In this document: one piece after another, positions 34,795 through 62,911 of the stretch
Numbering within the stretch: position 1 is the first letter of the stretch
Layout of the letters: each line of letters starts with the position of its first letter
Assembly (NCBI GenBank): GCA_010671905.1
Contig: JAAHII010000001.1
Span: 6,906,026 to 6,970,025, forward strand
Reading direction: 5' to 3'
Source: Leptolyngbya sp. SIOISBB
GTDB taxonomy: Bacteria > Cyanobacteriota > Cyanobacteriia > Phormidesmidales > Phormidesmidaceae
Length of the DNA stretch: 64,000 bases
Notes under the pieces: model-generated
What the model was told of the DNA's origin: nothing
Database searches by the model: none
What the model saw: only the letters and a program-made list of their open reading frames with translations
Program-made: the position numbers and the translations under genes

Positions 34795-34803
34795 AGCAAA
34801 TTT

Positions 34804-44024: not shown

Positions 44025-44140
44025 ACTGCTCCGCAAAACTTGATATTGCTACAGCAATGCCTTGCCATCCGACCGTGCCATCGACTCTATCTTTACGACT
44101 CCGTTAAACTGATCATAGCCCTACTGCGTGGTCTTTACCC

Positions 44141-45459: not shown

Positions 45460-45508
45460 GAGAATGCTCCTAATGACAATACAGCGAGTAGTTACGTCCG
45501 CTGCTGTC

Positions 45509-45540
45509 ACGTTCTATGGCTGAGCTACCAGGGCTTATTC
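45509..45540 (-). promoter_or_regulatory. Shared island promoter ahead of the pilin-like lipoprotein
   Basis: Minus strand: GAATAAGC at 45540, CAGC, then TAGAACGT at 45516 (offset 24). It is the weakest -10 match, but spacing is exact. Divergent from the promoter at 45591. Confidence 0.6.
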
Positions 45541-45590
45541 ATCCAGCTCGACTAACGGCATTGCTAATTCAAAAAAGATAATCTGAAGCC

Positions 45591-45622
45591 GAATAAGCTC
45601 TCCCGGCTCAGAGCTATATGCT
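45591..45622 (+). promoter_or_regulatory. Shared island promoter ahead of CHAT gene c
   Basis: GAATAAGC at 45591, CAGA, then TATATGCT at 45615 (offset 24). The predicted start is near 45629. Confidence 0.75.
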
Positions 45623-45637: not shown

Positions 45638-48503
45638 ATGGAGCTGTTTCTGATGCGTCGTCCGGTAAAGCTGTTTGGGGCAATTGCGATCGCGGTAGCT
45701 ATCCTGCCCATTGCCAATTTGCCGGGAAGGACTAGCGAACTCAAAACCAACTATCTTCAGCACTACTCACCATCTGAATCGTCAAATCATTACCTCGACA
45801 AAACAACTCCACTTCCAGCCCCTGATCAACCTTTGACTATTGCGACTACATGGTGCGAGGGCCACAGAAGAGAAGCTTGCGAGCGCAGGCGAGAGGAATT
45901 GGAGAAGCAACTTGAAAGATGCGAAGAGAGTTCATGTAGTAATAAAGCAGAAATTATTATTGAACTTAGCAATAGTTATTTCTATTTAGGTGAGTATTTA
46001 CGAGTTATTAATTTTTTAGAAGAAGTCTTAGAAGATGTGCGGGAGCATGGAGATCATCATCTAGAAGAAAAAATACTTACTGGCATTCAAAATAACCTAA
46101 GTCGTGAGATTTGGAGATTTAATGCGATTTCTGGCACTGTGAGTAGAATTTCTCCTTTTATATCATATAAAGATGGTGAAATGACTTGGCAAGAAGTAAT
46201 TGATGTCTCTGAGTTGAATCTTTTTGCGGCTCGTGAAATTGACGATGTATATCACCAAATAATAAGCCTGCATGGATTAGGTTGGGCACATAGAAATATT
46301 GCCTCATATTCAGAGGCAATAGAATTCTATAACCAAGCTCTGTCTCTTATCGAAGAGAATATAGAAACAGACATAGAACAATTCAACTCAAGTAGAAGTT
46401 TCTTTTCGTCCCGTAAATCTTTTTTGCTAGTTGACATGGGTGTCGTCTATACGGATTTAGCACAATATGAGGAAGCACTTCTATTTTTAGAGCAATCACT
46501 AGCGCTTGTGGAGGAAGAGGGTGACTGGCGAGGTTTTCCCTTGGCGAGAATAGGAGAGATTTATTTGAGGAGAGAGAATCTTACTAGGGCTTTAGAGTAT
46601 TTTGAAAGTGCTAGAGATGACTATCAAGTTGACTTTGACCGATATGCGGTATATGTCGGTTTGGGTGCTGTTTACTTTAAAACTGGGCGCTATCGCGAGG
46701 CAGTACAGGCCTTTGAAAGGGGTGTTAATCCTCCAATGGGAGATCCTGGAGGAAAAGGATTTGCGTTGAACGGCCTTGGACGGTCTCAGGTCGAACTGGG
46801 AAACTATGCTCAAGCTTTTGAAAGTTACCGGCAGGCTTTAAGGCTATTTAAGGATCTCAATGAACCGTGGGGAGAAAGCCAAACTCTCGGCAACATGGCC
46901 GCACTGACTGAAAGACAGAGTGAAACCGAGTTGGCAATCATACTTTACAAAGAATCCGTCAACATTTTAGAGGCAATTCGAGACAATCTGGCTGACTTGC
47001 CGGTTAATGTGCAGCGGTCTTACGCTGAGTCAGTGTCAGATCGCTACCGAGATTTAGCTGGTCTTTTACTTCGTGAAAATCGCATCATTGAGGCACAGCG
47101 AATACTCGATTTGCTGAAAGTTCAAGAGCTGGACGATTATATTCGTGGGGTGGAACGCACTAGCGAGACCGTCACTGGAGTAGATTTTTTGCGGCCAGAA
47201 GAAGCAATTCTGGCTCGTTATCATGAGCTACAAACGTCCGCTGTTGAGATCGGCCAAGAACTTGAGGAATTAAAGGATACCGCTCAAGAGCAGCGCACCG
47301 ATGAACAGGTGCAGCGGATTGCCCAATTGACTGACTTGCTCGACGAAATTAATGGTGACTTCCGCAACTTTGCCCGCAGTTCCGAAATCCGATCGCTCAT
47401 CGACCAGCTCAGCTTTGAAGCGCAAGAAGCCAGCCTCAGCCTCAATCAGCTCGATCGCCTGCGTGACGAACTGCAACAGCTCAACGCTGCTATCTTTTAT
47501 CCCTTGATTTTGGAAGGTCGGCTCGAACTGGTGATTACGGTGCCCGACTCCCCGCCCCTGCGCCGCACGGTTGATGTGTCCCGTGAGGAATTGAACGCGG
47601 CGATTCTGGAGTTTCGCACAGCGCTGACCGATCCGGGGTCTGATGCGGCAGCGCCTGCCCAAAAGCTTTATGACTGGCTGGTGCGCCCACTGGAGGCTGA
47701 CTTAGCCGCCGCCGGAGTCAAGACCATCATCTATTCTCCCGATGGGCAGTTACGCTACATTCCCTTAGCGGCGCTACATGATGGCGACAATTGGCTGATT
47801 CAGCAGTATCGGGTCAATAACATCACGGCGGAGTCGCTCACCGACCTGACCGAGAGCAACACTACGCAGCCCAAGATTCTCGCGGCGGCCTATGCCGATG
47901 AGTCGCTGGTGCATACTCCCGAAGTGAACGGTACGACTTACACGTTTCGCGGCTTGCCCGGTGCGGGTTTAGAAGTGGATCTGCTCCCGACCGAGACCAA
48001 GTACTTTGATACCGCCTTTAGCCTGGCGGCGGTGCGCCCGATATTGGATGAGTACAGCATTCTGCACTTTGCCACCCATGCGGCGTTTGTGCCCGGTGTG
48101 CCGGAAGACTCCTTCATTCTGTTTGGTAATGGCGACACCCCGACCCTGCGCGATGTGGAAGATTGGTCGCTGAATGGGGTGGATTTGGTGGTGCTGAGCG
48201 CTTGCGAAACTGGCGTGGGCGGACGCCGTGATGTCGTCGCTCTGGAAAGTCAGCGACAACGGCACCCAAGCACTGATGACGGAGTTTTATACGGCGCTGA
48301 CGGAAGCTGGCATGACCAAGGCCGCAGCATTACAGACCGCGCAAACCGCATTGATTACCGGAACATCTGACGCAGAGGATGGGGGAGACCGCGCCGGGGC
48401 ACCTCCTACAAGCCGCGATCGCACCGCCGCTACCGACGCCTATCCCGGCTACAGTCATCCTTACTATTGGGCACCCTTCATTCTTATTGGGAATGGTCAG
48501 TAG
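45638..48503 (+). pseudogene. TPR-CHAT gene c with an internal deletion in the CHAT domain
   Basis: From ATG 45638 (or 45653, which gives a cleaner signal peptide) the protein has a leader, a short Cys-rich region (ERCEESSCSNKAEI), diverged TPRs (about 100-430), a helical linker and a CHAT domain. The caspase-like His (HFATHAAF) and Cys (LSACETGVG) are present. Directly after ACETGVGG about 20 residues that all relatives have (the NGEGVYGLRRAF-like stretch) are missing and the frame changes. The true C terminus, AVMSSLWKVSDNGTQALMTE, continues in another frame to 48503. As read, the protein ends with unrelated residues at 48370. Because codons are lost, this is a real deletion rather than a one-base miscall. 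The 5' part is AT-richer than neighbouring genes. Confidence 0.75.
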
Positions 48504-48699
48504 GCCAAGGCGATCGCTCCGACATCACGGGGCTAGGCGCTTTTGGGTGTTGGGCAGTGAACAGCGATCGCGATCGCCCTAGAATCAGCCGAGCCCACTG
48601 ATCTCAACTCCATGCAGTTGGACGACACATCTTATGGCCAATAAAAAAATTGCGTTGGCCCCTTGCCTCTCCATCTCATGCCAAAGCTTTCCTAAAACT

Positions 48700-48731
48700 G
48701 AATAAGCTGCCACTGACCAGAGCTATATGCT
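48700..48731 (+). promoter_or_regulatory. Shared island promoter ahead of CHAT gene d
   Basis: GAATAAGC at 48700, CAGA, then TATATGCT at 48724 (offset 24). Predicted start near 48738, 24 bases before the ATG. Confidence 0.8.
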
Positions 48732-48761: not shown

Positions 48762-51700
48762 ATGCGCCCCGCCGCCTACTTCCTTAGCCTCGTTACCTTC
48801 ACCGCCCTCCTCGTTCCCGCCTTGGAAGTTGCTGCCACCGCCGCCCAGAGACCTGTTTTGTTTGAAGAAACCCAATTTCTCACAGCACTCAGTCCGGTCA
48901 GCCCTGCTGAAGCTCTGCCAGGTAGGGAGTCGTTGCACCTTGAAGCGGCAACCCCGCAGCGTGTGGCTCAGGCGGATGGCGATCAAAGTGAAATAACCAG
49001 ACTTTTTGAGCAGGGGCTGGAACAGTTCAACCGCAGCCAATTTAGAGAAGCCATTGCCACTTGGGAGCAGGTGCTCACCCTGATGCGTGATGCAGGCAAT
49101 CGCCAAGGCGAAGGCACTGTATTGAATGCGTTGGGAGCGGCTTATCAAGATCTGAGTCAATACGAGCAGGCTATTGGTTTGCACGAAGAAGCTATCGCCA
49201 TCGCTCGCGAGGTTGGCGATAGTGCTGGGGAAGGCAATGCCCTGGGAAATTTAGGCGTCGTTTATGAGAATTTGGGGGAATATGAGCAGGCGATTGAATT
49301 CTACGAGCAATCTCTAACCATCGCCCGAGAAATTGGCAATCGCGCCGGGGAAGGCAATGCCCTAGGAAATTTAGGCGTCGTTTATGAGAATTTAGGGGAA
49401 TATGAGCGAGCCATTGACCTCTACCAGCAAGCCCTAATGATTACCCGCGAGATGGGTAATCGCCCCGGAGAAAGTCTGGCCCTAGGGAATTTAGGCATCG
49501 TTTATGAGAAGTTGGGTGAATATGAGCGGGCTATCGACCTATATGAACAAGGTCTCGCCATAGCTCGTGACCTTGGGGATCGCGCTGGAGAAGCGGATGC
49601 TCTAGGCAATCTAGGTGGCGTTTACCGTAGCACTGGTCGCTATGAGCAGGCGATTGATCTAAATGAGCAAAAACTAGCAATTATGCGGGACCTTGGGGAT
49701 CGCGCTGGAGAAGCGGATGCTCTAGGCAATCTAGGTGGCGTTTACCGTAGCACTGGTCGCTATGAGCAGGCGATTGATCTAAATGAGCAAAAACTAGCAA
49801 TTATGCGGGACCTTGGGGATCGCGCTGGAGAAGCGGGTGCTCTAGGCAATCTAGGTGGCGTTTACCGTAGCATTGGTCGCTATAAGCAGGCGATTGATCT
49901 ACATGATCAAGCCCTAGCAATTATGCAGGAAATAGGCAGTCGTGCTGACGAAGGATTAGTTCTGAATAATTTAGGCATCGCTTATCGGAATTTGGGTGAA
50001 TATGAGCAGGCCATCAACCTTTATCGACAAGCTCGCGTCATAGCTCGCGACCTCGGCAATCTCCCTAACGAAGGATTAGTTCTGAATAATTTAGGCATCG
50101 TTTCCGATAATTTAGGTGAATATAAGCAGGCCATCGACTTCTACCAGCAAGCCCTAGATATCGCCCGCGAGATTGGTGATCGCCCTGGAGAAGGTCGGGC
50201 TCTGGGGAATTTAGGCATCGCTTATCGGAATTTGGGCGAATATGAGCAGGCCATTGACCTCTACCAGCAAGTCCTAGCGATTGCCCGCGAGATTGGTGAT
50301 CGCGCCGGAGAAGGAGCTGCCCTGGGAAATTTAGGTCTCGCTTACAGTAGTTTGAGGCAATATGAGCGGGCCATCGACCTATCTGAACAGCATCTTGCCA
50401 TTGCCCGCGAGATTGGTGATCGTGCTGGAGAAGGTCATGCCCTTAACAATCAGGGACTCGCTTTGAATAACTCGAATAAGTTCACAGAAGCTGCTGCTGT
50501 GTTGGAGCAGTCCATTCAAGTTTTTGAATCTCTACGCGATGAACTGTCGGACAATCATCTGATTTCAATTGCCGATACCCAGAGAGCAGCCTACCGCAAT
50601 CTGGAAAAAGCCCTTGTCGCTCAAGATCAGATTGCTGAAGCGTTAGCTATCACTGAGCAGGGAAGAGGTCGGGCATTTGTATTGCAGTTGATCAGTCGCC
50701 TCACTGATAAGAAAGAACAGACTGCGCTAGAAGCCACTTCGGTAGCTGAGACTCCCTCCGTGGTCGAGATTCAACAAGTTGCCCGCGACACCAACACGAC
50801 GCTGGTAACTTACTCTCTTCAATCCAACCAGGCGGTATTCATTTGGGTCGTGCAGGCTGATGGTGGCATCGAGTTTCGCTCAGTCGAGTTCGAGGGGGGT
50901 GATGATGATGGTCTAGTCGTCAATCCCATTGCCTCCATTGATGGCCCGGTCTATCGCAGCGCTAGCCCCGACTCCGCCATTACCGCACTGGTCACCGACT
51001 CCCGCTCTGCCGTTAACGAGAACAACAACCCCAACACGCCCCAACTGCAAAAACTGCACGAGATCTTGATTGACCCGATCTCCGATCTCCTCCCTACCGA
51101 TCCTAATGCCCAAGTGGCCTTTATTCCCCAAGGCGAGCTATTCCTTGTGCCCTTTGCCGCTCTGCAAGATGACGACGGCACCTACCTGATCGAAAAACAC
51201 ACCATTCTCACGGCACCGTCGATTCAGGTCTTTGGGCTGGCTAGTGAGGTAGGCTCTCTTCGACTCCGCTCAGAGAGCGAAGACAATCGTTTCCTGAGCG
51301 GAGTCGAAGGAAATGCTCTGGTAGTTGGCAATCCCACCATGCCGACCGTCTGGCTGCCCACCGACAACGGCTTTGCTGAAACACAACTTTCCTACCTCAG
51401 CGGAGCTGAAACCGAAGCCAAAGCCATTGGCGAGTCCTTTGATATTCCCGTACTGACGGGTGGGCAGGCCACCGAAGCCCGTATCAAACAAGAGCTGCCC
51501 AACGCCTCCCTCATCCACCTCGCCACCCACGGCTTGCTGGAATACGGCATCCCCGAATCCTCCGGCGTGCTCGACGTGCCGGGTGCCGTGGCTCTGGCTC
51601 CTGGTAATGGCGAAGACGGGCTACTGACTTCGGCAGAAATTCTGCAAATGGACTTGCAGGCCGATTTGGCCATCCTCAGTGCTTGCGATACCGGACGGGG

Positions 51701-52031
51701 CCGGATCACCGGTGATGGTGTTGTAGGGTTGTCCCGTGCCCTGATTACCGCTGGGGTACCCAGCGTCATGGTGTCCCTCTGGGCGGTGAACGACGACAGC
51801 ACCAGTATTCTGATGCAGCGCTTCTATAAGTTTCTTGCCACGGGCGAATTCACCAAAGCCGAAGCCCTGCGCCAAGCCCAACTCAGCCTCCTCTATGACG
51901 AAGATGTGGAAACTCGCCTGGAAGCCGTCCGCACTGGGGCCGCACCGCAGTATCGAGAAGGCTTTGAACCTGTGGGAAATCGCCATCCTTATCACTGGGC
52001 ACCCTTCGTCCTCATCGGCAATGGGCAGTAG
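48762..52031 (+). CDS. TPR-CHAT protein d (caspase-like protease)
   Basis: 1089 residues. A signal peptide (about 1-29) and short linker precede about fourteen 40-residue TPRs (about 75-590; unit NALGNLGVVYENLGEYEQAI). A helical connector (EQGRGRAFVLQLISRLTDKK) leads to the CHAT domain from about 660. The dyad is His923 (HLATHGLLEYG) and Cys975 (LSACDTGRGR). The repeats are of the LGN/AGS-like, two-helix type (TPR_12) with strikingly uniform sequence, including DNA-identical 120-bp copies at 49569-49836. A perfect 16-bp inverted repeat is inserted at 51258-51309. The CHAT domain is closest to that of gene b. Protein is predicted to be exported; the TPR superhelix probably recognises a partner that controls proteolysis. 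Confidence 0.9.
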   Translation: MRPAAYFLSLVTFTALLVPALEVAATAAQRPVLFEETQFLTALSPVSPAEALPGRESLHLEAATPQRVAQADGDQSEITRLFEQGLEQFNRSQFREAIATWEQVLTLMRDAGNRQGEGTVLNALGAAYQDLSQYEQAIGLHEEAIAIAREVGDSAGEGNALGNLGVVYENLGEYEQAIEFYEQSLTIAREIGNRAGEGNALGNLGVVYENLGEYERAIDLYQQALMITREMGNRPGESLALGNLGIVYEKLGEYERAIDLYEQGLAIARDLGDRAGEADALGNLGGVYRSTGRYEQAIDLNEQKLAIMRDLGDRAGEADALGNLGGVYRSTGRYEQAIDLNEQKLAIMRDLGDRAGEAGALGNLGGVYRSIGRYKQAIDLHDQALAIMQEIGSRADEGLVLNNLGIAYRNLGEYEQAINLYRQARVIARDLGNLPNEGLVLNNLGIVSDNLGEYKQAIDFYQQALDIAREIGDRPGEGRALGNLGIAYRNLGEYEQAIDLYQQVLAIAREIGDRAGEGAALGNLGLAYSSLRQYERAIDLSEQHLAIAREIGDRAGEGHALNNQGLALNNSNKFTEAAAVLEQSIQVFESLRDELSDNHLISIADTQRAAYRNLEKALVAQDQIAEALAITEQGRGRAFVLQLISRLTDKKEQTALEATSVAETPSVVEIQQVARDTNTTLVTYSLQSNQAVFIWVVQADGGIEFRSVEFEGGDDDGLVVNPIASIDGPVYRSASPDSAITALVTDSRSAVNENNNPNTPQLQKLHEILIDPISDLLPTDPNAQVAFIPQGELFLVPFAALQDDDGTYLIEKHTILTAPSIQVFGLASEVGSLRLRSESEDNRFLSGVEGNALVVGNPTMPTVWLPTDNGFAETQLSYLSGAETEAKAIGESFDIPVLTGGQATEARIKQELPNASLIHLATHGLLEYGIPESSGVLDVPGAVALAPGNGEDGLLTSAEILQMDLQADLAILSACDTGRGRITGDGVVGLSRALITAGVPSVMVSLWAVNDDSTSILMQRFYKFLATGEFTKAEALRQAQLSLLYDEDVETRLEAVRTGAAPQYREGFEPVGNRHPYHWAPFVLIGNGQ
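49569..49836 (+). repeat. 120-bp tandem duplication within the TPR array
   Basis: The 120-bp unit (one 40-residue TPR) is repeated without a single difference from 49569 to about 49836, more than two full periods. Neighbouring repeats are clearly diverged. This marks very recent expansion by slippage or unequal recombination. Confidence 0.85.
51258..51309. repeat. Perfect 16-bp inverted repeat inserted in CHAT gene d
   Basis: CTTCGACTCCGCTCAG (51258-51273) and its exact complement CTGAGCGGAGTCGAAG (51294-51309) flank 20 bases. It adds about 18 residues (within GSLRLRSESEDNRFLSGVEG) absent from relative b, and keeps the frame. Confidence 0.8.
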
Positions 52032-52060
52032 CTGCGACTCTGCTCAGCGATCGCGGGTGT

Positions 52061-52092
52061 GAATAAGCCCTAAACTGCCAGAGATAGTCATG
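52061..52092 (+). promoter_or_regulatory. Shared island promoter ahead of the sigma-like regulator
   Basis: GAATAAGC at 52061, CAGA, then TAGTCATG at 52085 (offset 24). The predicted start near 52099 lies past the ATG at 52090, which favours ATG 52141 as the true start. Confidence 0.65.
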
Positions 52093-52140
52093 ATTGCAAG
52101 CCGCAAACGGTTTGCGCGATCGCCTTTAGGTTTTGACTTT

Positions 52141-53478
52141 ATGAGTGTTTCTGACTACTGGCATTTACAAAAGCTCGACAGCACCGGGCAAAGTCGGCGG
52201 CAGCAATTGACGGCGGCCTACACCTGGTTACTAGAGCAAGCTCCCAACGCCGTCGAAGAGACTGATGACGATCATCGCCTGTTGCAGGCGCGACTGCTGA
52301 GTGACTGGCAGCAGGGGCAGATGGCCCTGGCACTATTGTGTTTGCGCTGCGCGGTGTCCCATGCCATTCTCCGCGCTTGCTGGCAGCTCGTCAGTCAGTT
52401 TGGGGATTACTACCAGTTTTGCCGCGCTGACCTATTGCCCTTTGTCTTGGATGACGAAGGACGGCCCCTGAGCGACTATCAACCGTTCGGTGTCCACATT
52501 GTCGAGACCTACACCCCAGGCCGCGCCAGTTTAGAGGGCTGGGCCGCCCACCTAACGCGCAATCATCGCGAACTTAACCAGTTCCTCATCGAGCGGGGGC
52601 TATATCGAGTCAGCGATTGGGCCATTTTGAACGATACCCAAGTGAGTCAGCTATCCCGAATTCTGGGCGAGTTTCATCGCCTCACCGAGGCCGAAATCGC
52701 TGCGGCGGAAACCCTGCTCAGCCGCTATCACGACGTCTATCGCCGCGATCGCCTCCAGCTTGCCACCGGTCGTAAACGGGGTCGCTGTCAGATGCCCAGC
52801 GATCACCAATTGCATGCCATCAATGCCAAGCTGGCCCCCCGAACGGTGCTGGGCCAGCTGCGACAGTTAGCCTACTGGCTGCGGCAATACCGCATTCATG
52901 TGCGGGGTGGGTTGCCGCTGCTGGAACCCCTAGATGCTGAAGAGAGCCAGGAACTGCCCGCCCCCGCACCCAGCGACAGTGACACGCAACAAGAGGACTT
53001 TTTGCAAGCCTATCGCCAACAGTTCGAGGCGGCTCTAGCCGTCGCGATGAGCGACACCCTGCAAGCTTACTGCGATAAGTTGCGGCGCAAAAAAGCGGAG
53101 AAAGCCGACGACTTTCTCAAAGCGCTGCACCTATTTCACTGTGAAGGCGAAAGCATGAAAGCGATCGCCCCTAAGCTGGGCCTGACCAATCAAGTCGCCG
53201 TCACTCGCCTGATGAATTTGAAACGGTTTCGCGCCGACGTACGAAGCGCCTTGCTGACCCAACTCCAGTCCCGCGTGCGCGACACCGCCCTAAACTTTAC
53301 CTCTGCTGAACAGTTGCAGGCCCTGGGCGATCGCCTCGACGCCCTGCTTGCCGAAGAAGCGGATCGGCTGATTGGCGAAGCCGAATCCGAAGCCAAAATC
53401 CCCCATAATCGCACGGCCAATAGTCGCTTTGCACGGCAGCTTTGCGCCAGTCTACAGCACCTAACAATTTCCACCTGA
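52141..53478 (+). CDS. Sigma-factor-like regulatory protein of the CHAT operon
   Basis: 445 residues from ATG 52141 (MSVSDYWHLQKL); an upstream ATG at 52090 lies ahead of the predicted transcription start. I recall this family from cyanobacteria, directly upstream of DUF1822 and CHAT-CHASE2 genes. Central motifs are NRELNQFLIERGLYRVSDWA and LSRYHDVYRRDRL. Near the C terminus, EGESMKAIAPKLGLTNQVAV followed by TRLMNLKRFRADVRSAL reads as a helix-turn-helix like sigma region 4, which contacts the -35 element. A clear region 2 is not seen. Since its own gene has the island promoter, it may be the specificity factor that reads that promoter and controls itself. The sigma role is inference; family and operon position are firmer. 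Confidence 0.5.
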   Translation: MSVSDYWHLQKLDSTGQSRRQQLTAAYTWLLEQAPNAVEETDDDHRLLQARLLSDWQQGQMALALLCLRCAVSHAILRACWQLVSQFGDYYQFCRADLLPFVLDDEGRPLSDYQPFGVHIVETYTPGRASLEGWAAHLTRNHRELNQFLIERGLYRVSDWAILNDTQVSQLSRILGEFHRLTEAEIAAAETLLSRYHDVYRRDRLQLATGRKRGRCQMPSDHQLHAINAKLAPRTVLGQLRQLAYWLRQYRIHVRGGLPLLEPLDAEESQELPAPAPSDSDTQQEDFLQAYRQQFEAALAVAMSDTLQAYCDKLRRKKAEKADDFLKALHLFHCEGESMKAIAPKLGLTNQVAVTRLMNLKRFRADVRSALLTQLQSRVRDTALNFTSAEQLQALGDRLDALLAEEADRLIGEAESEAKIPHNRTANSRFARQLCASLQHLTIST

Positions 53479-53642
53479 GAACTCAAAACTCAAAATTGAG
53501 AACTCATTGGGATTCCCCAAGCGAAATCACAGTTCCCGCCCATTCCCCCATCTCCCCATGCACCGCCCCCAACCAGAATCTTACTTTTCTCACCGATTCC
53601 TCAATCGCCCTCCTGTCGTTATTCTTTGAGTGAGCACACATC

Positions 53643-54728
53643 ATGGTTAGTCTCTTGTCTACCCGACCCGATTTCTCCTCTCTAGCAGAGGTCACGGTCT
53701 TACCAGAATCCCTAATCGAGCAGGCTTTACGCCGCTGCCAGGGCGTTACCGATGGCGACGAGCAGTGGGACTGCTACCTGCGATCGCTGGCCTTAGCGGG
53801 CGTACGGCACTGGCTCGAAGCAGGCAGTATTCCCTTCACTATTCGACTTAGCGATCACCAACCCGCTAGCATCACCTCGATGCTTCAGGTGAACGGCTGG
53901 CGAGTCGGCGTCGCGATCGTGCGCAGCCTGCCCACGGAAGCTGTCACGATTCCCCGAGCAGCAATCGCTGGAGCCACCGGCATCGACCTGTGGCTCTTGG
54001 TCGAAGTACAAGAAGAACTCGGTCAAATTAGAGTGCTGCGCGGTCTTGAAAGCCCGCACATTGCGGCTCGCTCCACCGTGCTCAATACCGCTGGCGAATA
54101 CGTTTTGCCCCTCACCGCTTTTACCCTATCGCCGGATCGGGTCTTGTTTCAGCTCAGTCACTTACCGGCTTTGGACACCCAGACGGCACATCGACCTCTT
54201 TCCCAGGCCCTAGGGCAAGCAGTAATGAATGCCGGTCGCTGGCTCAACAACCAACTCGATGACGTCGCCCAACAGTTTGCCTGGACGCTGCTAGACCCGC
54301 TCACGCCTGCGAGTGAACTGCGATCGCCCACCCAAGAACTGGAGTCCATTTTGCGCGAGGTCAAACCCTCCAGCCTGAATGTTCCCTCCCGTGCCCGCGC
54401 TGCCTTTACCGAAGTGTTGATTGCGGCGGTACCGCTCCGTCTCTATGCCCTGATCTGGAGCGTCTTTGAGGACACTACGCCCGAGTGGAGCTTGCTAGTC
54501 TTTCTTGGCCCATCTCCCGGCGAACTGTTGCCTGCCGGGCTGCGGCTCCGCATTCGCGATGATGAGTCCGTACTGGTGGAGGAACGGTTTGAGGCTTACT
54601 CAGAGGCTACTTATCTATATGCTCAAGTCTTTGGCCAATGGGACGAAACCTTCTTCCTCGAAATCTTTCCGCCGAACGATTCTGAACCCCTGGCCTTACC
54701 CGCCTTTGAGTTTCAACCCGACGCCTAA
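53643..54728 (+). CDS. DUF1822 family protein
   Basis: 361 residues, no signal peptide or membrane span. Features of the DUF1822 family: a start with PESLIEQALRRCQ, the ALAGVRHWLEAGSI segment, RVGVAIVRSLPTEAVTIPRAAI and ATGIDLWLLVEVQEELGQIRVLRGL. The family is almost restricted to cyanobacteria and nearly always sits between a sigma-like gene and a CHAT-CHASE2 gene, as here. Its biochemical role is unknown. The C-terminal half (about 240-355) is beta-rich (LYALIWSVFEDTTPEWSLLVFLG) and could contact the CHAT partner. The 164-base gap from the sigma-like gene shows no island promoter, and the downstream gene follows 5 bases after the stop. Confidence 0.8.
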   Translation: MVSLLSTRPDFSSLAEVTVLPESLIEQALRRCQGVTDGDEQWDCYLRSLALAGVRHWLEAGSIPFTIRLSDHQPASITSMLQVNGWRVGVAIVRSLPTEAVTIPRAAIAGATGIDLWLLVEVQEELGQIRVLRGLESPHIAARSTVLNTAGEYVLPLTAFTLSPDRVLFQLSHLPALDTQTAHRPLSQALGQAVMNAGRWLNNQLDDVAQQFAWTLLDPLTPASELRSPTQELESILREVKPSSLNVPSRARAAFTEVLIAAVPLRLYALIWSVFEDTTPEWSLLVFLGPSPGELLPAGLRLRIRDDESVLVEERFEAYSEATYLYAQVFGQWDETFFLEIFPPNDSEPLALPAFEFQPDA

Positions 54729-54733
54729 GAACG

Positions 54734-57136
54734 ATGGTTTATCAACTCAACATTCAAAAAATACAAGACGTTTGCCTGTTTGAGCTGACCTGGGGACGAA
54801 CGCAGCGGCTAAAGACTCAGATTCCCTATCCAGAAAAGCTTGAGACTTGCTATCGCCAATGGCAGCGGGCATATCTCAATTTTTATCGGCAGGCGCTGCG
54901 GGGGCGAGCCGGAGTCACGGGCCAAATGGTGGCAACAGCCACCGTGGACTGGCATCAGCATCTCGTCGATGCCGAAGGTCAGTTGCTGTTGGAGTTTCAC
55001 CGCTGGCTACGGCAAGGGGAACTGACCGACATTCGCCGTACCTTAATCCTGGCGGCTAAAACTGCCCCTGTCGATTTGTTTCTCACCTGTAATCCGATTG
55101 AGATGGCTCGGCTGCCTTGGGAAACCTGGGAAATTGGTGCAGAATATGGCGGTGCCCCGATTCGCATGTCGCGATCGCCCGTCAATATTCCGGTTTCGGC
55201 GGCACCAATGGCTCAGCGGGGTAAGACACGAGTCTTGGCCATCATCGGCGAGGAAAACAACCTAAACTTGTCGGTCGATCGTGAGGCCCTCAAAGCACTT
55301 GAGCATTTGCTGGATGTCACCTTTATCGGCTGGACACCGGGTCAAGATGCCGCCGCTCTGAGAACGGCCATCTGTCAGGTGATCGCCGATCCGCAAGGGT
55401 GGGATGTCCTCTTTTTTGCCGGACACAGCAACGAAGCCGATGTCGTCGCGGGTCATATTTATGTGGCTCCTAATACAGCCCTTTCCATCCACGAACTCAA
55501 GTCCTACCTGCAAGCGGCCCAAGCAAATGGCCTCCAGTTCGCCCTGTTCAATTCTTGCTCCGGCATCACCATTGCTGACGCTCTGATTGAACTGGGTTTG
55601 AGTCAAGTGGCCATCATGCGGGAACCCATTCACAACCGGGTAGCCCATGCGTTCTTGCTGACGTTTTTGCAGTCCCTGGCTCGCCATGAGGATGCCCATT
55701 CGGCATTACAGGCGGCCTGTCGCCACCTCAAGTTAGAGCAGCATCTGACCTTTCCCTCCGCTCATCTGGTGCCCTCCTTATTTCGGCATCCCGATTCGGT
55801 GCCGTTTCAAATTCCTGAGCGGGGCTGGCGACAGGAACTGCGGCGCTGGCTACCCGGTAAGCGACAGGCGATCGCCCTCAGCAGCGTGTTTCTGCTGAGC
55901 CTGATTCCTGGCGTTCAATCAGCTTTACTATCCGGTCGATTACTCGGGCAGGCGATGTATCGCAATCTCACGGGGCAAATGCCCACTGCGCCGCCAGAGG
56001 TGGTGCTGATTCAAATCGACTCGGACTCCCGTCAGGCGGCACCGGAACTGATCGATATTTCTCCCATTGATCAATCCTATTTAGCGCGGGTGGTGGATCG
56101 CCTAGTGGACCAGGACGCTGACGTCATTGGGATTGATTATTTGCTCGACTTGTACCCTACAGAGCAGTCACCGATCTTGGCGGAAACGCTGCGGAGTGCC
56201 GTCTCAGAAGCCAATACTTGGCTGGTGTTCAGTGCTCGTCTGGAAAATGAGCAGGAACAAGGTGTCAACCCACAGGCGGAGATTATCGATTCGGCTTGGG
56301 CCCTGGAAGGCTATACCAATGCCCCCCGTTGGTACATGACCTTGCCCTGGCAAGAGGCAATTTGCCAAACCACCTGTCCGTTTGGCTTTCTGCTAGCATT
56401 GACCGCCCAGCACAAGCGCACCGATGCCGCACCGACACCAGAACTCTCTCGCCAAACGGCTCTCAGACCTGAATTAGTCCGAGCCGCCTCAGTCTCTGGC
56501 CATGCCCCCATCCAAACCTTGATCCAGCGTCGATTGTCGTTGGTGACGGTTCTAGCCAGCCAAGTCGGTAGCCAATCGCTGCGCCCGATTTTGGATTTTT
56601 CGTTGCCGCCAGATCGCGTATTTCAGCGGGTATCGGCCTACGAGCTACTGGATGGCACTTTGGACGAAGCCGAGGCCGAGGCGATCGCCAACGCGTCGGT
56701 TGTGCTCGTTGGCAGCTTACTTCACACCGAAGACCGGGTCGATCAACGTTGGCAAGAACTCACAACTACGCCCGGAACCATTGCCTACTGGCGGCGCTGG
56801 GGACGCGATATCGGGTATGAACCTATCTTTGGCGGCGTCGAGAGCCTCGCGTATGAAGTGCATCATCACTTGCGATCGCACCTGGTAACGCCCGTACCGA
56901 CTGCGTGGCTGGTGGCATTATTCGCATTGGCTGCTCCCTCGTTATCGCTGTATGGGTTGAGCCGCCTCTCATCGCGGCAACAGGTTTTTTATACTTTGGT
57001 AGGAATTTCCGTTGGCTTCGGCATCGTCAGTCTACAGACGGCTGTTTCCATGGGACTCCTCATGCCCTGGTTATTACCGGGTGCAGTGATTTGGATTTAT
57101 GGATTACCCGTAATTAGGAGGTTACCAAAATCATGA
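54734..57136 (+). CDS. CHAT-CHASE2 membrane protein (caspase-like protease with sensor)
   Basis: 800 residues. The N-terminal CHAT domain (about 90-350) carries His231 (FFAGHSNEAD) and Cys275 (FNSCSGITIA), the caspase-type dyad. A membrane helix at about 378-400 is followed by a CHASE2 sensor domain (about 410-690; EVVLIQIDSDSRQAAPEL, DADVIGIDYLLDLYP, VVLVGSLLHTEDR) placed outside the cytoplasm, then three membrane helices (about 715-795). CHASE2 domains sense extracellular or periplasmic signals. The topology suggests that the sensor regulates a cytosolic protease. The start lies 5 bases after DUF1822, and the end overlaps DUF928 by ATGA. This is the only CHAT gene here without TPRs and with a predicted cytosolic protease. 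Confidence 0.85.
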   Translation: MVYQLNIQKIQDVCLFELTWGRTQRLKTQIPYPEKLETCYRQWQRAYLNFYRQALRGRAGVTGQMVATATVDWHQHLVDAEGQLLLEFHRWLRQGELTDIRRTLILAAKTAPVDLFLTCNPIEMARLPWETWEIGAEYGGAPIRMSRSPVNIPVSAAPMAQRGKTRVLAIIGEENNLNLSVDREALKALEHLLDVTFIGWTPGQDAAALRTAICQVIADPQGWDVLFFAGHSNEADVVAGHIYVAPNTALSIHELKSYLQAAQANGLQFALFNSCSGITIADALIELGLSQVAIMREPIHNRVAHAFLLTFLQSLARHEDAHSALQAACRHLKLEQHLTFPSAHLVPSLFRHPDSVPFQIPERGWRQELRRWLPGKRQAIALSSVFLLSLIPGVQSALLSGRLLGQAMYRNLTGQMPTAPPEVVLIQIDSDSRQAAPELIDISPIDQSYLARVVDRLVDQDADVIGIDYLLDLYPTEQSPILAETLRSAVSEANTWLVFSARLENEQEQGVNPQAEIIDSAWALEGYTNAPRWYMTLPWQEAICQTTCPFGFLLALTAQHKRTDAAPTPELSRQTALRPELVRAASVSGHAPIQTLIQRRLSLVTVLASQVGSQSLRPILDFSLPPDRVFQRVSAYELLDGTLDEAEAEAIANASVVLVGSLLHTEDRVDQRWQELTTTPGTIAYWRRWGRDIGYEPIFGGVESLAYEVHHHLRSHLVTPVPTAWLVALFALAAPSLSLYGLSRLSSRQQVFYTLVGISVGFGIVSLQTAVSMGLLMPWLLPGAVIWIYGLPVIRRLPKS

Positions 57137-57822
57137 GTTGGCATCTGCTCAAAAATGCATCGGCTGCGAGTGGCGTATTGGGTTTACTCGGGCTAATGGC
57201 TAGCCTCGCGATCGCCCAAGACTCGCCACTCGCCGCCCCTGAAATCAATGGGTTTCTGGACTGGCTAAGGCATCCCGACGATGGCACCCCACCCCGGGGT
57301 CCTCGTCCGGGGGAAGGCAGTTTTTGTGTCGTCAACTATGCTTCGGGGGCAGAGAATGTGGTTTGGAGCGATCGCCCCACCTTCATCATCCAGGGTAGTC
57401 CCCGCAGTTTGGCCCTCTATCGCGACACGTCCCAAGAGCCCATCTGGGAACATCCGGTCAATGATGCTGAGGTGGTCGTCTACACCGGCCCCCCGCTGGA
57501 GCCCGACACCGCATACACCTTCCGGGCACGGCATCCGCGCTTTGAGTCCAGCATTTTCGAGCAGCGGGAACTGCGGATGATGAGCTTTGACGAGGAAATA
57601 CAGACCACAGCTAACCTGATATCCCTGGAAGGGGAAATGCGGAACGGGGAGTCTGTCACAGAGGCTGATATCGCGATCGCGCGGGCCGACTATTTTTGGC
57701 GATTTGGGTTAGAGACCGAGGCGTGGGCTGCCACTTGGCCATTGCAAAAGGAATCGCCAGAAATCGCTGAGGCGATCGCCACGAGCGTTGAAGCCCTCTG
57801 CACTCCTGAAACGGCTCCTTAG
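57133..57822 (+). CDS. DUF928 family exported protein
   Basis: 229 residues with a signal peptide (hydrophobic core about 12-26, SLAIAQ-DS). The mature part begins with a Pro/Arg-rich stretch and a beta domain: FCVVNYASGAENVVWSDRPTF and SPRSLALYRDTSQEPIWEH, then YTFRARHPRFESSIFEQREL, and finally a helical region. This is the DUF928 layout, in which a periplasmic beta-sandwich precedes a helical region. Members accompany CHAT-CHASE2 genes in cyanobacterial genomes and may bind the CHASE2 periplasmic domain. It is coupled to the previous gene and ends the operon. No terminator is obvious after the stop. Confidence 0.8.
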   Translation: MSWHLLKNASAASGVLGLLGLMASLAIAQDSPLAAPEINGFLDWLRHPDDGTPPRGPRPGEGSFCVVNYASGAENVVWSDRPTFIIQGSPRSLALYRDTSQEPIWEHPVNDAEVVVYTGPPLEPDTAYTFRARHPRFESSIFEQRELRMMSFDEEIQTTANLISLEGEMRNGESVTEADIAIARADYFWRFGLETEAWAATWPLQKESPEIAEAIATSVEALCTPETAP

Positions 57823-58092
57823 CAGTGACGTGAAGCAACGATCAGCTGGAAATGTCAGAGCATCTTGAGTGTCTGCGTCAAGACAACAGGTGATCGCTGC
57901 GGAAAACTCGGAATGCTTTAGTAACTCAATAGCAAAAGCGTTGCTCATAGGAGCATAAGTAAGTTGAGCGATCGCCCTAAAACATAATCGTCTCGCACTC
58001 AAGTAGCAGAGCTGGCTGCACAGGATAAACTGCTGACAGAGCCATTGCCAATCCGTCGATAACGGGAGCAGCAGAACTTTTTAAGCAGATTT
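57823..58092. other. Intergenic region upstream of CHAT gene f promoter
   Basis: About 270 bases with no supported gene. I see no repeat and no clear terminator. Confidence 0.5.
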
Positions 58093-58124
58093 GAATAAGC
58101 TCTTAGCCGTTGGAAATAGATACT
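58093..58124 (+). promoter_or_regulatory. Shared island promoter ahead of CHAT gene f
   Basis: GAATAAGC at 58093 and TAGATACT at 58117 (offset 24). The predicted start near 58131 places the ORF-extending GTG 58132 at the transcript end and favours ATG 58153. Confidence 0.7.
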
Positions 58125-58152
58125 TGATGAAGTGACTACTTGGAACATGGCG

Positions 58153-61100
58153 ATGGTGTTGAATAGAAAACTCGTAGGCGGTTTAACATCAATGATGCTA
58201 GCGGTTAATGGCTTAGCCTTACCCGTTGCTGCCACACCTTTAGAACAAACCACTCTCACTGCCCAAGAAACTGACGAAGATGCGGCTGCCTCAGAGCAAT
58301 TTCTAGAGATACTACGGCGCACTTTGGGAGTTCCTCAAGAAACTGACCAAGATGCCGCAGTCTTGGAGCAAGCTGCCGCCCTAAACCAGCAAATCGTAGA
58401 GCTCTATCAAGCAGGGCGATATTTAGAAGCTATTCCTCTCGCAGAAGAAGCACTCTCGCTTAACCGAGAACGGCTAGGTGCTCGTCATAGAGCTGTTGCT
58501 ACTAACCTCAACAACCTAGCAAGGCTGTATGTAGAATTGGGACGCTATGACGAAGCCCAGCCACTGTACCAGGAAGCAATAGCTATTCTTCGTGAGCAGT
58601 TAGGAGAGCGTCATTCAGATGTTGCACTTAGCCTAAACAACTTAGCCGGATTGTATAAAAATCAAGGACGCTTTAGTGAAGCCGAGGCGCTGTATCAAGA
58701 AACAATAGCTATTTTTCGTGAGCAGTTAGGAGATTATCATCAAAATGTTGCACTGGGTCTAAATAACTTAGCATTGCTGTATCAAACACAAGGACGTTAC
58801 ACCGAAGCTGAGTCGCTATATCAAGAAGCAATAGCTATTCGTCTAGAGCTATTTGGAGAACGCCATATTACGCTGGCAACTCCTCTCAGCAATTTGGCAT
58901 TGCTGTATTGGGAGCAAGGACGATATGAAGAAGCTGAACCCTTACATAAAGAGTCTCTCTCTATTTTGCGAGAACAATGGGGAGATCACCATCCCTCGGT
59001 GGGTATTGGTCTCGATAATTTAGCAGAACTCTATCGCGTACAAGGACGCTATGACGAAGCCGAGCCGCTATTTAAAGAGGCTCAAGTAATCTTACGAGAG
59101 TACTTAGGGGAGCGCCATCCTGACGTCGCAATAAATCTTGGTCACCTAGCAGGAGTACATCAGATTCAGGGGCGCTATGAAGAGGCTGAACAGCATTACC
59201 TGGAAGCTATAGATATTCTTCAAGAAGCGCTTGGAGAGCGGCATCCTGTTGTCGCGGTCAGCCTTAACAATCTTGCGGTGCTGTACCGTATTCAGGGACG
59301 CTACCAGGAAGCAGAAAACTTATATCAAGAAGCACTGGATATTCGCCAAGAGCAGCTTGGAGAGCGTCATCCTGTTGTCGCCGCAACCCTTAACAATCTT
59401 TCAACGCTATATCGAACACGAATGGATACAGGAAGAGCATTAGACTATCTTCAGAAAGCGCTGGAAATTGAAGAGCATATCCTGTCGTTAAACCTGATTT
59501 CCCTTACTGAAGCTCAACGGCAGGACTTTGCTGCTGCTGTAGACTCTACAACTCGTGCTATATCGCTCTCAATAGAAGTCCCGGAGGCATTGCCTTTGGG
59601 GCTGTCCACTTTACTTCGTCGCAAAGGTCGCCTACTAGAAGTTGGTAGCAACAGTTCTCAAGCATTACGTCAAAATTTGGACGAAGAAAGTCAATCTCTA
59701 CTAGACAACCTTGCGAATATACGCCAATCTCTTTCTAAGCTTATATTTAGTCCTCCAACCAATCTTTCAAGTGAGCAATACCTCACTGAAATCACCAGAC
59801 TAGAGCAGCAATCCGAAGATATAGAGAAAAAAATATCGCAGCGCAGTGCTGTCTTTCGGGCCGAGAGCCAGCCTGTGGAGCTTGCAAATGTGCAAGCTCA
59901 GATTCCGGCGGATGGGATACTACTTGAGTATGCTCTCTATCAGCCCTTTAATATTTCTGATCAATCCATCTGGTGGGGCGACCCGCGCTACGCCGCCTAC
60001 CTCCTTTTCCCAAATGGGCGCATTGAGGTGGTTGACCTGGGCGATGCTGCGGAGATTGATACGGCAGTACAGTCCTTTGTCAGGCTGCTGCAAAACCGGA
60101 ATGCTGAATTTAAGCGCACCGGAGCTAGGCCCAGACTCCGTGAAGTCGATATTGAACAAGTCACCAGCAATGTTAAGGAACTGGTGTTTGACCCGATCGC
60201 CCCTTATCTACAAGACACCAACCATCTCCTCATCTCCCCCGACGGTCAGCTCAATCTGCTGCCCTTTGAGGCACTGCAAACCGAAGCAGGTGGCGACTAC
60301 CTGGTGCAGCAATATCAGATCAGCTACCTCAACTCCGGGCGCGACTTGCTCAAGTTTGACGTCATCGAGCCCAGCCAAAATCCTGCTGTGATCGTGGCTA
60401 ACCCTGATTATGAAACGGCTGACTTTCTCCCACAGGGAGATGCTATCGCGAACGACTCCGCGCAGCCAGCAGTAGCCGTCGCGCCCCGAGCAGAGTCGAT
60501 GGGCGACAATCGCCGTTCCACTGAACTCAGCCAGCTCAACGAGTTCGCCCCCCTCCCTGGCACCGCCGCCGAAGCCGAAGCCATCCGTCCCCTCTTACCC
60601 AACGCCGTCATTCGCACCGAATCCGACGCCACCGAAAACCTGCTTAAATCAGTGGAGTCACCCCGCATTTTGCACATCGCCACCCACGGCTTCTTTTTGC
60701 CCAATGTCGATCGCCCTAACCCTAGCGGTCAGCGCGGCATCAGCGTCATTGCCAGCGACAATCCCTTTGCTACTGCCGTCACCCCCGGCGTTGTCGTCGA
60801 AAATCCCCTGTTGCGCTCTGGCCTCGCGTTGGCTGGGTTCAACACCCGCACAAGCGGCAGTGAAGATGGCGTCTTCACCGCGCTGGAAGCCTCCCAGCTC
60901 AACTTATTCGGCACTCAGCTCGTCGTCCTCTCCGCCTGCGACACCGGCCTTGGCGACATCGCCAATGGTGAAGGCGTCTATGGCTTGCGGCGCGCCTTTG
61001 CCTTGGCCGGAGCTGAAACTCAACTGCTCAGCCTCTGGCAGGTGGACGACTTTGGCACCCAAAGCCTCATGGCCCGCTACTATGAAAACCTCACTGCTGG

Positions 61101-61224
61101 AATGGGCCGCAGTGAAGCGTTGCGCGAAGTGCAGCTTGAGATGATTGAGCAGGGCGGCGAGTATAGCCATCCCTACTACTGGGCTGCATTTGTCTTAACG
61201 GGCGATTGGCGACCTTTAGAGTAG
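58153..61224 (+). CDS. TPR-CHAT protein f (caspase-like protease)
   Basis: 1023 residues from ATG 58153, chosen because the following MVLNRKLVGG lines up with the start of gene a (MGLNQSLARG) and the earlier GTG lies at the predicted transcription start. A signal peptide (about 1-25) and a Gln/Glu-rich linker precede about eight 42-residue TPRs (about 80-430; ERHPVVAVSLNNLAVLYRIQ). The linker RRKGRLLEVGS and the CHAT domain follow. The dyad is His845 (HIATHGFF) and Cys929 (LSACDTGLG). From about residue 590 it is near-identical to gene a (for example EPSQNPAVIVANPDYETA), while the TPR regions differ in number and sequence and it lacks the PPC domain. That looks like a shared effector with swapped sensors. 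Confidence 0.88.
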   Translation: MVLNRKLVGGLTSMMLAVNGLALPVAATPLEQTTLTAQETDEDAAASEQFLEILRRTLGVPQETDQDAAVLEQAAALNQQIVELYQAGRYLEAIPLAEEALSLNRERLGARHRAVATNLNNLARLYVELGRYDEAQPLYQEAIAILREQLGERHSDVALSLNNLAGLYKNQGRFSEAEALYQETIAIFREQLGDYHQNVALGLNNLALLYQTQGRYTEAESLYQEAIAIRLELFGERHITLATPLSNLALLYWEQGRYEEAEPLHKESLSILREQWGDHHPSVGIGLDNLAELYRVQGRYDEAEPLFKEAQVILREYLGERHPDVAINLGHLAGVHQIQGRYEEAEQHYLEAIDILQEALGERHPVVAVSLNNLAVLYRIQGRYQEAENLYQEALDIRQEQLGERHPVVAATLNNLSTLYRTRMDTGRALDYLQKALEIEEHILSLNLISLTEAQRQDFAAAVDSTTRAISLSIEVPEALPLGLSTLLRRKGRLLEVGSNSSQALRQNLDEESQSLLDNLANIRQSLSKLIFSPPTNLSSEQYLTEITRLEQQSEDIEKKISQRSAVFRAESQPVELANVQAQIPADGILLEYALYQPFNISDQSIWWGDPRYAAYLLFPNGRIEVVDLGDAAEIDTAVQSFVRLLQNRNAEFKRTGARPRLREVDIEQVTSNVKELVFDPIAPYLQDTNHLLISPDGQLNLLPFEALQTEAGGDYLVQQYQISYLNSGRDLLKFDVIEPSQNPAVIVANPDYETADFLPQGDAIANDSAQPAVAVAPRAESMGDNRRSTELSQLNEFAPLPGTAAEAEAIRPLLPNAVIRTESDATENLLKSVESPRILHIATHGFFLPNVDRPNPSGQRGISVIASDNPFATAVTPGVVVENPLLRSGLALAGFNTRTSGSEDGVFTALEASQLNLFGTQLVVLSACDTGLGDIANGEGVYGLRRAFALAGAETQLLSLWQVDDFGTQSLMARYYENLTAGMGRSEALREVQLEMIEQGGEYSHPYYWAAFVLTGDWRPLE

Positions 61225-62797: not shown

Positions 62798-62879
62798 GCT
62801 TTGCCGACCAGAGCAGAATGTTGACGGGGTGAGGCGATCGCTTGCCAAAATTCCGTGAAATAAAAGATTGCCTGAAGGT

Positions 62880-62911
62880 GAATAAGCTCTCGTAGCCCAG
62901 AGCTATATGCT
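62880..62911 (+). promoter_or_regulatory. Shared island promoter ahead of CHAT gene g
   Basis: GAATAAGC at 62880, CAGA, then TATATGCT at 62904 (offset 24). A full match to the consensus. Confidence 0.8.

Follow-up and report, generated by a model that had tools for sequence, protein, structure and literature searches.

Proteins of the TPR-CHAT and caspase-like kinds are numerous in many cyanobacteria, and to our knowledge the switch that controls them is an open question. A neighbourhood of a caspase-like gene, an extracytoplasmic function (ECF) sigma factor gene and a DUF1822 gene was reported in 2021 (eLife, PMC8195603), and the passages of that paper on the neighbourhood propose transcriptional control of many genes together with an autopeptidase/sigma idea. 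In the type III-E CRISPR (clustered regularly interspaced short palindromic repeats) system CASP, the CHAT protease Csx29 (TPR-CHAT) is described as cutting the sigma inhibitor Csx30, and CASP-sigma as having motifs in its own locus (PMC10028731); the same paper names RseA-DegS and RsiW as cases of regulated proteolysis of membrane anti-sigma factors. Here we describe a four-gene locus of Leptolyngbya sp. SIOISBB, located in a stretch of 64,000 nucleotides (the window; positions 6906026-6970025 of contig 1, in a genome of 8.34 Mb). It encodes a 445-residue sigma-like protein, a DUF1822 protein, a CHAT protease with a CHASE2 domain, and a DUF928-like protein. The likely, though not assured, reading of this locus is that the 445-residue protein is a diverged ECF-like sigma factor that drives its own operon and a regulon of TPR-CHAT genes, is held by DUF1822, and is released through cleavage by CHAT-CHASE2. 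The features of the operon, all on the plus strand, are as follows.

52060 to 52086, plus strand: predicted autoregulatory promoter; -35 element TGAATAAG at 52060-52067, CAG at 52079-52081, TA at 52085-52086, predicted +1 near 52096
52141 to 53478, plus strand: sigma-like gene (diverged ECF-like, 445 residues); the open reading frame (ORF) opens at 52090; region-2-like part about 62-178, region-4.2-like helix-turn-helix 319-358, long insert between them
53643 to 54728, plus strand: DUF1822 protein (Pfam), candidate anti-sigma factor; model PD-(D/E)XK-like in its N-terminal half and Ig-like in its C-terminal part
54734 to 57136, plus strand: CHAT (caspase-like) protease with a membrane-anchored CHASE2 domain (Pfam); predicted catalytic His231 and Cys275
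57133 to 57822, plus strand: DUF928-like protein with an N-terminal hydrophobic segment (family comparison)

The start of the sigma-like protein at 52141 was set by its fit to relatives (alignment A1, 22 of 35 listed ORFs), and the first in-frame ATG, at 52090, is not favoured. The initial annotation had read these genes as a self-controlled operon. All four ORFs exist, and the DUF1822, CHASE2 and CHAT assignments were recovered with Pfam; the DUF928 label was not recovered for the window protein itself.

A promoter motif shared by the sigma-like gene and its surroundings

The motif TGAATAAG-N11-CAG-N3-TA is located 81 nt before the sigma-like gene. Its layout was derived from every GAATAAG occurrence in the window: counted from the first T of TGAATAAG, CAG begins 19 nt and TA 25 nt downstream; the start position given in the initial annotation, 52061, is the G of this element. 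An initial pattern, TGAATAAGC-N8..12-TGCC, had only 2 scattered matches and was replaced by this layout. Across the genome, GAATAAGC-N11-AG-N3-TA has 11 matches, all within 6938083-6995090 (57 kb around the sigma-like gene), and TGAATAAG-N12-AG-N3-TA has 13, of which 12 fall in the same stretch and one lies at 3889399; the reversed controls gave 0 in both searches. The shared motif is far beyond chance. Its clustering bears out the earlier claim that the sigma-like gene carries the promoter of a regulon.

For comparison we used the loci of the 80 best among 126 relatives found for the sigma-like protein, all 80 cyanobacterial by title. Alignment A2 joins the window protein with 74 of them, after removal of L082, L109, L120 and L125 (partial or broken) and of the duplicates L091 and L139. 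In the 300 bp before these 74 unselected orthologues, de novo dyad counts gave TGCAT-15-AGA in 30, ATAAG-11-CAG in 27 and TGAAT-19-ATA in 17, the best chance dyad reaching 8 in mononucleotide and 7 in dinucleotide-keeping shuffles. The layout obtained in this way is identical in both clades of the protein, with TGAATAAG in one and TGCATAAG in the other. Two partial runs do not enter this count: TGAAT-19-ATA in 18 of 22 was discarded as circular, these loci having been picked for holding TGAATAAG, and TGCAT-15-AGA in 31 of 51 of the other group (not picked for the motif; shuffled maximum 7) was superseded by the run on all 74. With any third base allowed, the strict pattern occurs within 450 bp before 43 of 75 genes, window included (shuffle mean 0.05, maximum 1 in 200 shuffles). 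The third base is A in 21, C in 22, and never G or T; without the window, 42 of 74 orthologues have the pattern (A 20, C 22). On sequence grounds, this points to autoregulation of the ECF type, a trait that is common and not universal.

The motif also follows the gene between genomes. We compared 77 genomes, calling carriers those with a sigma-like gene at E up to 0.001. The 40 carriers hold 155 sites of TGAATAAG-N12-AG-N3-TA (control 15; the 13 of this genome included), whereas the 37 non-carriers hold 15 (control 12), and two or more sites are present in 26 of the 40 carriers as opposed to 2 of the 37 non-carriers (Fisher p 2e-8). Some counts weigh against a sigma-like protein that reads its own promoter: 8 of the 40 sigma-bearing genomes have no site, and the strict motif is missing from 32 of 75 upstream regions, of which a looser form recovers 3 and leaves 29 without either. 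A weaker 800-bp scan of those 29 returned near-matches in 10, three of which are discounted (the one in L067 belongs to another gene; those in L088 and L142 look like chance). Furthermore, the loci that supplied the C form are also those used to count it, the A form having come from the window. The motif-free regions and site-free carriers are what one would expect if another regulator read the motif and the sigma-like gene were merely one of its targets. This would not predict that the number of motifs tracks the presence of the gene across genomes, that the A or C form tracks the clade of the gene, or that five genomes of the same genus without the gene hold 0, 1, 1, 1 and 0 sites, and we regard it as very improbable.

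The character of the sites is that of a core promoter. At 129 sites examined (106 A-type, 23 C-type), the base at offset 35 is a pyrimidine in 88% of A-type and 87% of C-type sites, and the base at offset 36 a purine in 93% and 96%, a pyrimidine-purine step as for a transcription start site. An A-rich stretch precedes TGCATAAG in C-type sites, and the housekeeping TATAAT is not conserved in either set. For non-sigma genes, the median distance from site to start codon is 63 nt (65 sites within 150 nt). Judged from these statistics, the motif would be more than a binding site: a core promoter whose -35 and -10 elements stand a fixed distance apart.

The 129 distinct sites stand against 1 reversed-control match in 1.93 Mb of loci. 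This ratio is descriptive, the loci having been partly chosen for sites: L146-L163 and L165 were mostly taken because they hold sites, and the 129 include near-copies from related strains. Among 73 distinct non-sigma proteins encoded downstream, TPR_12 was matched in 38 and CHAT in 20, compared with 8 and 6 of 69 neighbourhood controls (set A8, 69 of 75 sampled proteins, 6 long ones being left out; counts from 25 listed Pfam families per set). The first 37 of the 73 also include RTX repeats (HemolysinCabind) in 7, Peptidase_C14 in 4 and PPC in 4, Peptidase_C14 being found in 2 of the 69 controls as well. A regulon of TPR-CHAT genes, as first proposed from the window, is therefore upheld: the motif stands before genes rich in TPR and CHAT above the level of their neighbourhoods.

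Sigma-like character of the 445-residue protein

Two segments of the protein resemble sigma factors in profile comparisons made with HHalign, whose pairwise E-values are not database E-values. Its family aligns with cyanobacterial ECF region 4.2 on the helix-turn-helix columns (E 1.8e-4, probability 48%). Only a region 2.3 stretch aligns with sigma70 (E 0.1), and a region 2.3-like stretch of 24 columns is common to the window family and a short sigma family (E 2.9e-4, probability 40%). The AlphaFold2 model is confident locally (predicted local distance difference test, pLDDT, 89.9; predicted template-modelling score, pTM, 0.57), with helix-turn-helix helices predicted at 319-334, 339-345 and 351-358. 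A -35-binding helix-turn-helix had been expected at the C terminus; the model does contain it, though 87 residues short of the extreme C terminus, the stretch beyond it being mostly helical. The top three Foldseek chains are chain F of RNA polymerase entries (E 1.3 to 2.2), and the titles of 48 of the 50 entries listed by VIA-align denote transcription complexes or models of sigma factors (Z no higher than 7.9, large root-mean-square deviation, rmsd), leaving a DeoR helix-turn-helix and a transporter.

The short sigma family comes from a second, diverged copy of the operon in the same genome (L164:7149-17879; contig 1, about 277148-287878). Its order is a 301-residue protein, DUF1822 (1.6e-54), CHAT-CHASE2 (CHASE2 1.4e-57), DUF928 (9.5e-35) and a TPS-TPR-CHAT fusion. 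By itself, the 301-residue protein has only weak Pfam matches (Sigma70_r2 0.012, Tcp11 9.4e-4). At the level of its family, an alignment with ECF factors spans 133 columns and runs from region 2 into region 4 (E 5.9e-9, probability 95.9%), and the slot of the 445-residue protein is thus, as far as profiles tell, filled in the second copy by a clearly ECF-like family. The match of the sigma-like profile to a single short sigma sequence was chance-like, the short-family alignment doing better. No TGAATAAG promoter was found in the 280 bp before the second copy. Short-sigma genes were also searched for a motif of their own: the best candidate precedes 6 of 25 genes, against up to 5 after shuffling, and the long-sigma motif, as a negative control, occurs before 0 of the 25.

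A number of results weigh against a sigma factor. The window protein has no Pfam sigma match; among the 75 members Sigma70_r4_2 was matched by only 4 (best 2.6e-4), HTH_40 or HTH_18 were matched by as many, and DUF3106 by 7. Foldseek returned no significant match for the model (best E 1.3). The VIA Z-scores stay below 8, a level reached by unrelated helical models, and VIA merely re-ranks the Foldseek list, sigma chains being abundant in the Protein Data Bank (PDB). Nor did the sigma-like profile find a sequence-related solved structure, its two matches being cellulase-type chains at E 0.11 and 0.85. The comparison with sigma folds that the initial annotation had called for thus came out divided: the helix-turn-helix and its likeness to region 4.2 stand, while matches to a region 2 fold remain below significance.

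These results would also fit a DNA-binding activator that occupies -35 on TGAATAAG while the housekeeping sigma factor reads TA at -10. The missing Pfam sigma match agrees with this, as do the DeoR helix-turn-helix, which matches residues 315-372 at an rmsd of 3.3, and TANNNT at offset 25 in 11 and at offset 27 in 17 of the 106 A-type sites. However, the spacing of CAG and TA from TGAATAAG or TGCATAAG is the same in the two clades, with no conserved TATAAT, the order of the region 2.3-like and 4.2-like segments is that of a sigma factor, and an ECF-like family protein holds the same slot in the second operon copy. An activator therefore seems improbable to us. The signs of a sigma factor are individually weak yet agreeing, and with the region 4.2 and 2.3 profile matches and the helix-turn-helix of the model the protein is probably sigma-like, as originally proposed. 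Its initiation of transcription is what we infer from this sequence evidence. In the model about 140 residues (about 178 to 319) lie between the region-2-like and region-4-like parts, and we call the protein ECF-like without filing it as ECF because this spacing exceeds the definition cited in PMC11119718, in which regions 2 and 4 are less than 50 residues apart.

The base at the third position of the -35 element may be matched by the protein. Among the matches listed, genomes carrying the A type hold 54 A and 2 C sites, and genomes carrying the C type 18 A and 76 C sites, the A sites in the latter being near control level (29 control matches, both letters together). This is a hand count of 25 of 30 genomes (G079, G084, G086, G087 and G093 not included), drawn from 34 of the 80 loci, 3 of which dropped out; genomes were typed by the sigma gene of the given locus, and L131 by its position in the tree. 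One C-type orthologue is the copy of Calothrix sp. NIES-4101 (L138). On the tree of the sigma-like protein the A/C label changes once, and three alignment columns (29, 350 and 352) separate A from C carriers perfectly among 46 labelled proteins. Columns 350 and 352 are at the start of the third helix (351-358) of the predicted helix-turn-helix, which suggests that these residues are matched to the -35 base, a correlation and not proof, because the tree holds only one switch. That single evolutionary event tells against the recognition-helix argument. Two properties of the 17 listed C-type genomes weigh against our overall reading: their signal over control is weaker (94 sites, 29 control), and two of them hold A-type sites only.

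DUF1822, CHAT-CHASE2 and the proposed circuit

DUF1822 is the most constant neighbour of the sigma-like genes. The window protein matches the family at 1.1e-24 and its gene begins 164 nt after the sigma-like gene. In 77 of 81 loci, near-copies from related strains included, a DUF1822 gene comes no more than 600 nt after the long sigma-like gene, whose end it often overlaps. A DUF1822-like ORF also lies within 1.5 kb of the short sigma gene in 27 of 30 loci. Of the 68 loci with room for CHAT-CHASE2, 45 have it at the usual distance, and 36 of 60 have a DUF928-like gene at its usual place; in variant loci a TPR-CHAT gene is inserted, or no such gene comes next. Because DUF1822 is constant while CHAT-CHASE2 and DUF928 vary, sigma and DUF1822 appear to form the core of the module, the arrangement one would expect of a sigma factor with its regulator. 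As neighbour of two very different sigma families, DUF1822 would, by association only, be the partner of the sigma factor, and it is the best candidate for its regulator.

The DUF1822 model (pLDDT 88.5) has no TPR array. Its N-terminal half resembles the PD-(D/E)XK proteins Eco15I and ST1444 at borderline VIA Z-scores of 8.0 and 7.9 (rmsd 3.0 over 114 and 108 residues), and its C-terminal part resembles Ig-like sandwiches. The DUF1822 profile (alignment A3, the window protein with 61 of 76 relatives) found 8 chains of the major histocompatibility complex in the PDB at E 0.014 or worse, taken as chance, and none of Csx30; compared by HHalign, it shares nothing with the sigma-like profile. A crude rule found no signal peptide in 95 of 98 relatives, and there is one borderline hydrophobic stretch.

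In an alternative role, DUF1822 would be an adaptor or co-activator, with the protease acting on the sigma factor or on itself, the latter following the autopeptidase activation proposed by the authors of PMC8195603. The lack of an anti-sigma protein among the listed fold or sequence matches of DUF1822 agrees with it. DUF1822, however, stays with the sigma gene even where CHAT-CHASE2 is not at its usual place, which fits a direct regulator of sigma better; the adaptor role is possible, and we find it the less convincing of the two.

The CHAT-CHASE2 protein of the window matches CHASE2 at 3e-11 (391-729) and CHAT at 1.6e-7, residues 1-181, before the CHAT match, having no Pfam match. His231 and Cys275 are invariant in 51 of 51 close relatives and are, from the family, presumably catalytic. 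Hydrophobic segments at 380-398, 717-735, 755-773 and 770-788 flank the CHASE2 match, a layout that fits a cytoplasmic protease with an outside sensor. Among solved structures nothing related was found, the two matches lying at E above 0.5. The window DUF928-like protein had no Pfam match at E up to 1, nor in a second scan up to 0.01; 16 of 34 scanned members of its family (set A9, 34 of 48 rows) match DUF928.

The absence of CHAT-CHASE2 from its usual place in 23 of the 68 loci is a point against its part in the control of sigma. Together with the 20 CHAT proteins among the 73 regulon members, it would suit a CHAT-CHASE2 that is one more effector of the operon and has no hold on sigma. It is nonetheless the sole CHAT protein of the operon with several membrane segments, and the order sigma, DUF1822, CHAT-CHASE2, DUF928 recurs in the same genome with very diverged sequences, so that a mere effector is in our view unlikely.

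In the circuit that we favour, the 445-residue sigma factor would recognise TG[A/C]ATAAG-N11-CAG-N3-TA and, on sequence statistics, start transcription about 10 nt after TA. Its targets would be its own operon and a TPR-CHAT-rich regulon with some caspase-domain, RTX and pilin-like proteins. DUF1822 most likely holds the sigma factor inactive; CHAT-CHASE2 most likely senses something outside the cell or at the membrane, and most likely lifts the block of DUF1822 by cleavage. The freed sigma factor would then amplify its own operon and make the regulon products. The proteolytic step is drawn by analogy with CASP, in which Csx30, the inhibitor of sigma, is cleaved by Csx29 and motifs of CASP-sigma are present in the locus that encodes it. 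Of the circuit set out in the initial annotation, in which a CHASE2 signal leads CHAT to cleave a target and release a factor for the TPR-CHAT genes, the sigma-like protein, its own regulon promoter and the TPR/CHAT-rich regulon found support, and the reading as a whole did so in part. More tentatively, and with the balance slightly tilted against it, this may be a widespread caspase-gated regulon in which CHAT-CHASE2 senses an external cue, cuts DUF1822 and frees a sigma factor of an as yet unannotated family that transcribes itself and an exported CHAT/caspase arsenal; in that family a single switch of the -35 base, from A to C or the reverse, would have gone along with matching changes in the recognition helix.

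Regulon members, genomic setting and known systems

The further promoters and one of the predicted regulon members in the window are listed below.

48699 to 48725, plus strand: same promoter (strict motif), before the TPR-CHAT gene 48762-52031
48762 to 52031, plus strand: TPR-CHAT protein with an N-terminal hydrophobic segment, predicted regulon member
34803 to 34829, plus strand: same promoter (strict motif), before the TPR-CHAT gene 34864-38298
45590 to 45616, plus strand: promoter with C for the first T, before the TPR-CHAT gene starting at 45638
58092 to 58118, plus strand: near-match (GG for AG), before the TPR-CHAT gene 58132-61224
62879 to 62905, plus strand: same promoter (strict motif), before a TPR-CHAT-like gene (start about 62945) running past the window end
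45515 to 45541, minus strand: same promoter, before a type IV pilin-like G/H gene 44953-45510 (Pilin_GH match in a close homologue, L033)
43999 to 44025, minus strand: same promoter, before the TPR gene 41629-43962
32058 to 32084, minus strand: same promoter, with no fitting ORF of at least 100 residues downstream on that strand

The motif or a near-match therefore precedes 5 of the 6 TPR-CHAT ORFs in the window (34864, 45638, 48762, 58132 and about 62945, all on the plus strand). The sixth, 38961-41321 on the minus strand, whose CHAT domain was read from its sequence alone, lacks it. This ORF and 41629-43962 (minus) look like one TPR-CHAT gene split in two, the first half having the motif (44025); the L033 homologue of the split 38961-43962 gene (13654-18669) is a single ORF of 1671 residues. 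The TPR-CHAT gene 45638-48503 looks broken: its ORF stops at 48370, just past the catalytic Cys motif, and what is left of the CHAT end lies in a different frame (48228-48503). In the related genome of L033, a site similar to 32058-32084 (4067, minus) precedes an ORF of 168 residues.

In other genomes, promoters in L049, L151, L084 and L136 stand mostly 54-63 nt before the start codons of similar MVLDI...GDD proteins, which look RTX-like. Those in L037, L038, L046, L092, L146, L149 and L161 precede proteins with a start like that of the twin-arginine translocation (Tat) pathway (RRHFLQ or similar), probably the Peptidase_C14 (caspase) proteins counted as 4 of 37. Tat-like starts were found in 6 of 73 downstream proteins and 3 of 75 sampled controls. 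A crude hydrophobicity rule for signal peptides showed little difference (16 of 73, 11 of 75); a second rule, which took charge and small residues into account, flagged 41 of 73 and 21 of 75, a result that counts little as this rule was designed after the first had failed. From their sequences, many regulon products are probably exported.

Relatives of the sigma-like protein are also encoded by plasmids: 18 records from cyanobacteria contain one, of which 7 are mobilizable, 5 conjugative and 6 non-mobilizable, and in 16 of the records it is annotated as hypothetical protein. In Leptolyngbya boryana, a single plasmid carries relatives of the sigma-like and CHAT-CHASE2 genes with about 1.1 kb between them. 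Because of the occurrence on plasmids, the system probably spreads. In the window, ATPases and coupling proteins like those of conjugation/type IV secretion, with a transposase-like ORF between them, were read from the ORF list at 9897-23174, which suggests a mobile element beside the regulon. None of the four operon proteins matched a PADLOC model at E up to 0.001. Elsewhere in the window, PADLOC models identify a BREX-like (bacteriophage exclusion) defence locus at 266-3957 with PglZ and BrxL genes, the PglZ gene being split across two overlapping ORFs, 266-1450 and 1392-2525.

In the passages available from the literature on CHAT, caspases and cyanobacterial sigma factors, no publication on this promoter or regulon turned up. 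As far as that literature was searched, four things are new: the promoter, its regulon, the existence of two sigma families that share a constant partner, and the switch of the -35 base. A precise promoter that can be read genome-wide makes the regulon and its trigger directly testable.

Relative to the cyanobacterial sigma70/ECF factors covered by the census in PMC11119718, the likeness lies in the region 2.3-like and 4.2-like segments. The present family is too diverged for Pfam in most members and carries the insert of about 140 residues, and a domain-based census such as that one probably missed it. The EACC2-caspase/ECF sigma/DUF1822 neighbourhood of PMC8195603 has the same genes, and its caspase-like protein can carry CHASE2. 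The passages of that paper on the neighbourhood mention neither a promoter nor a regulon, nor autoregulation, nor a division of the sigma factors into two families, unlike the present analysis. They call DUF1822 a TPR protein, whereas our model has PD-(D/E)XK-like and Ig-like parts instead of a TPR array.

As with RseA-DegS and RsiW, an envelope signal would become release of a sigma factor by proteolysis; there the inhibitor is in the membrane, whereas here the protease would be, and not DUF1822, the predicted inhibitor. With type III-E CRISPR CASP, as the relevant parts of PMC10028731 describe it, the locus shares a CHAT protease, a sigma factor, a third protein, and sigma motifs in its own locus. 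CASP is triggered by RNA via Cas7-11 and uses a TPR-CHAT protease, whereas membrane segments and CHASE2 are present here, and cleavage, demonstrated in CASP, is only proposed for this locus. The four operon proteins have no Cas7-11 or Csx30 Pfam domain, no search having been aimed at Cas7-11 or a CRISPR array. By analogy, the nearest precedent of the proteolytic circuit would be Csx29-Csx30-CASP-sigma, and the Leptolyngbya locus, if our reading is true, would be a CRISPR-independent case of a caspase-like protease controlling transcription.

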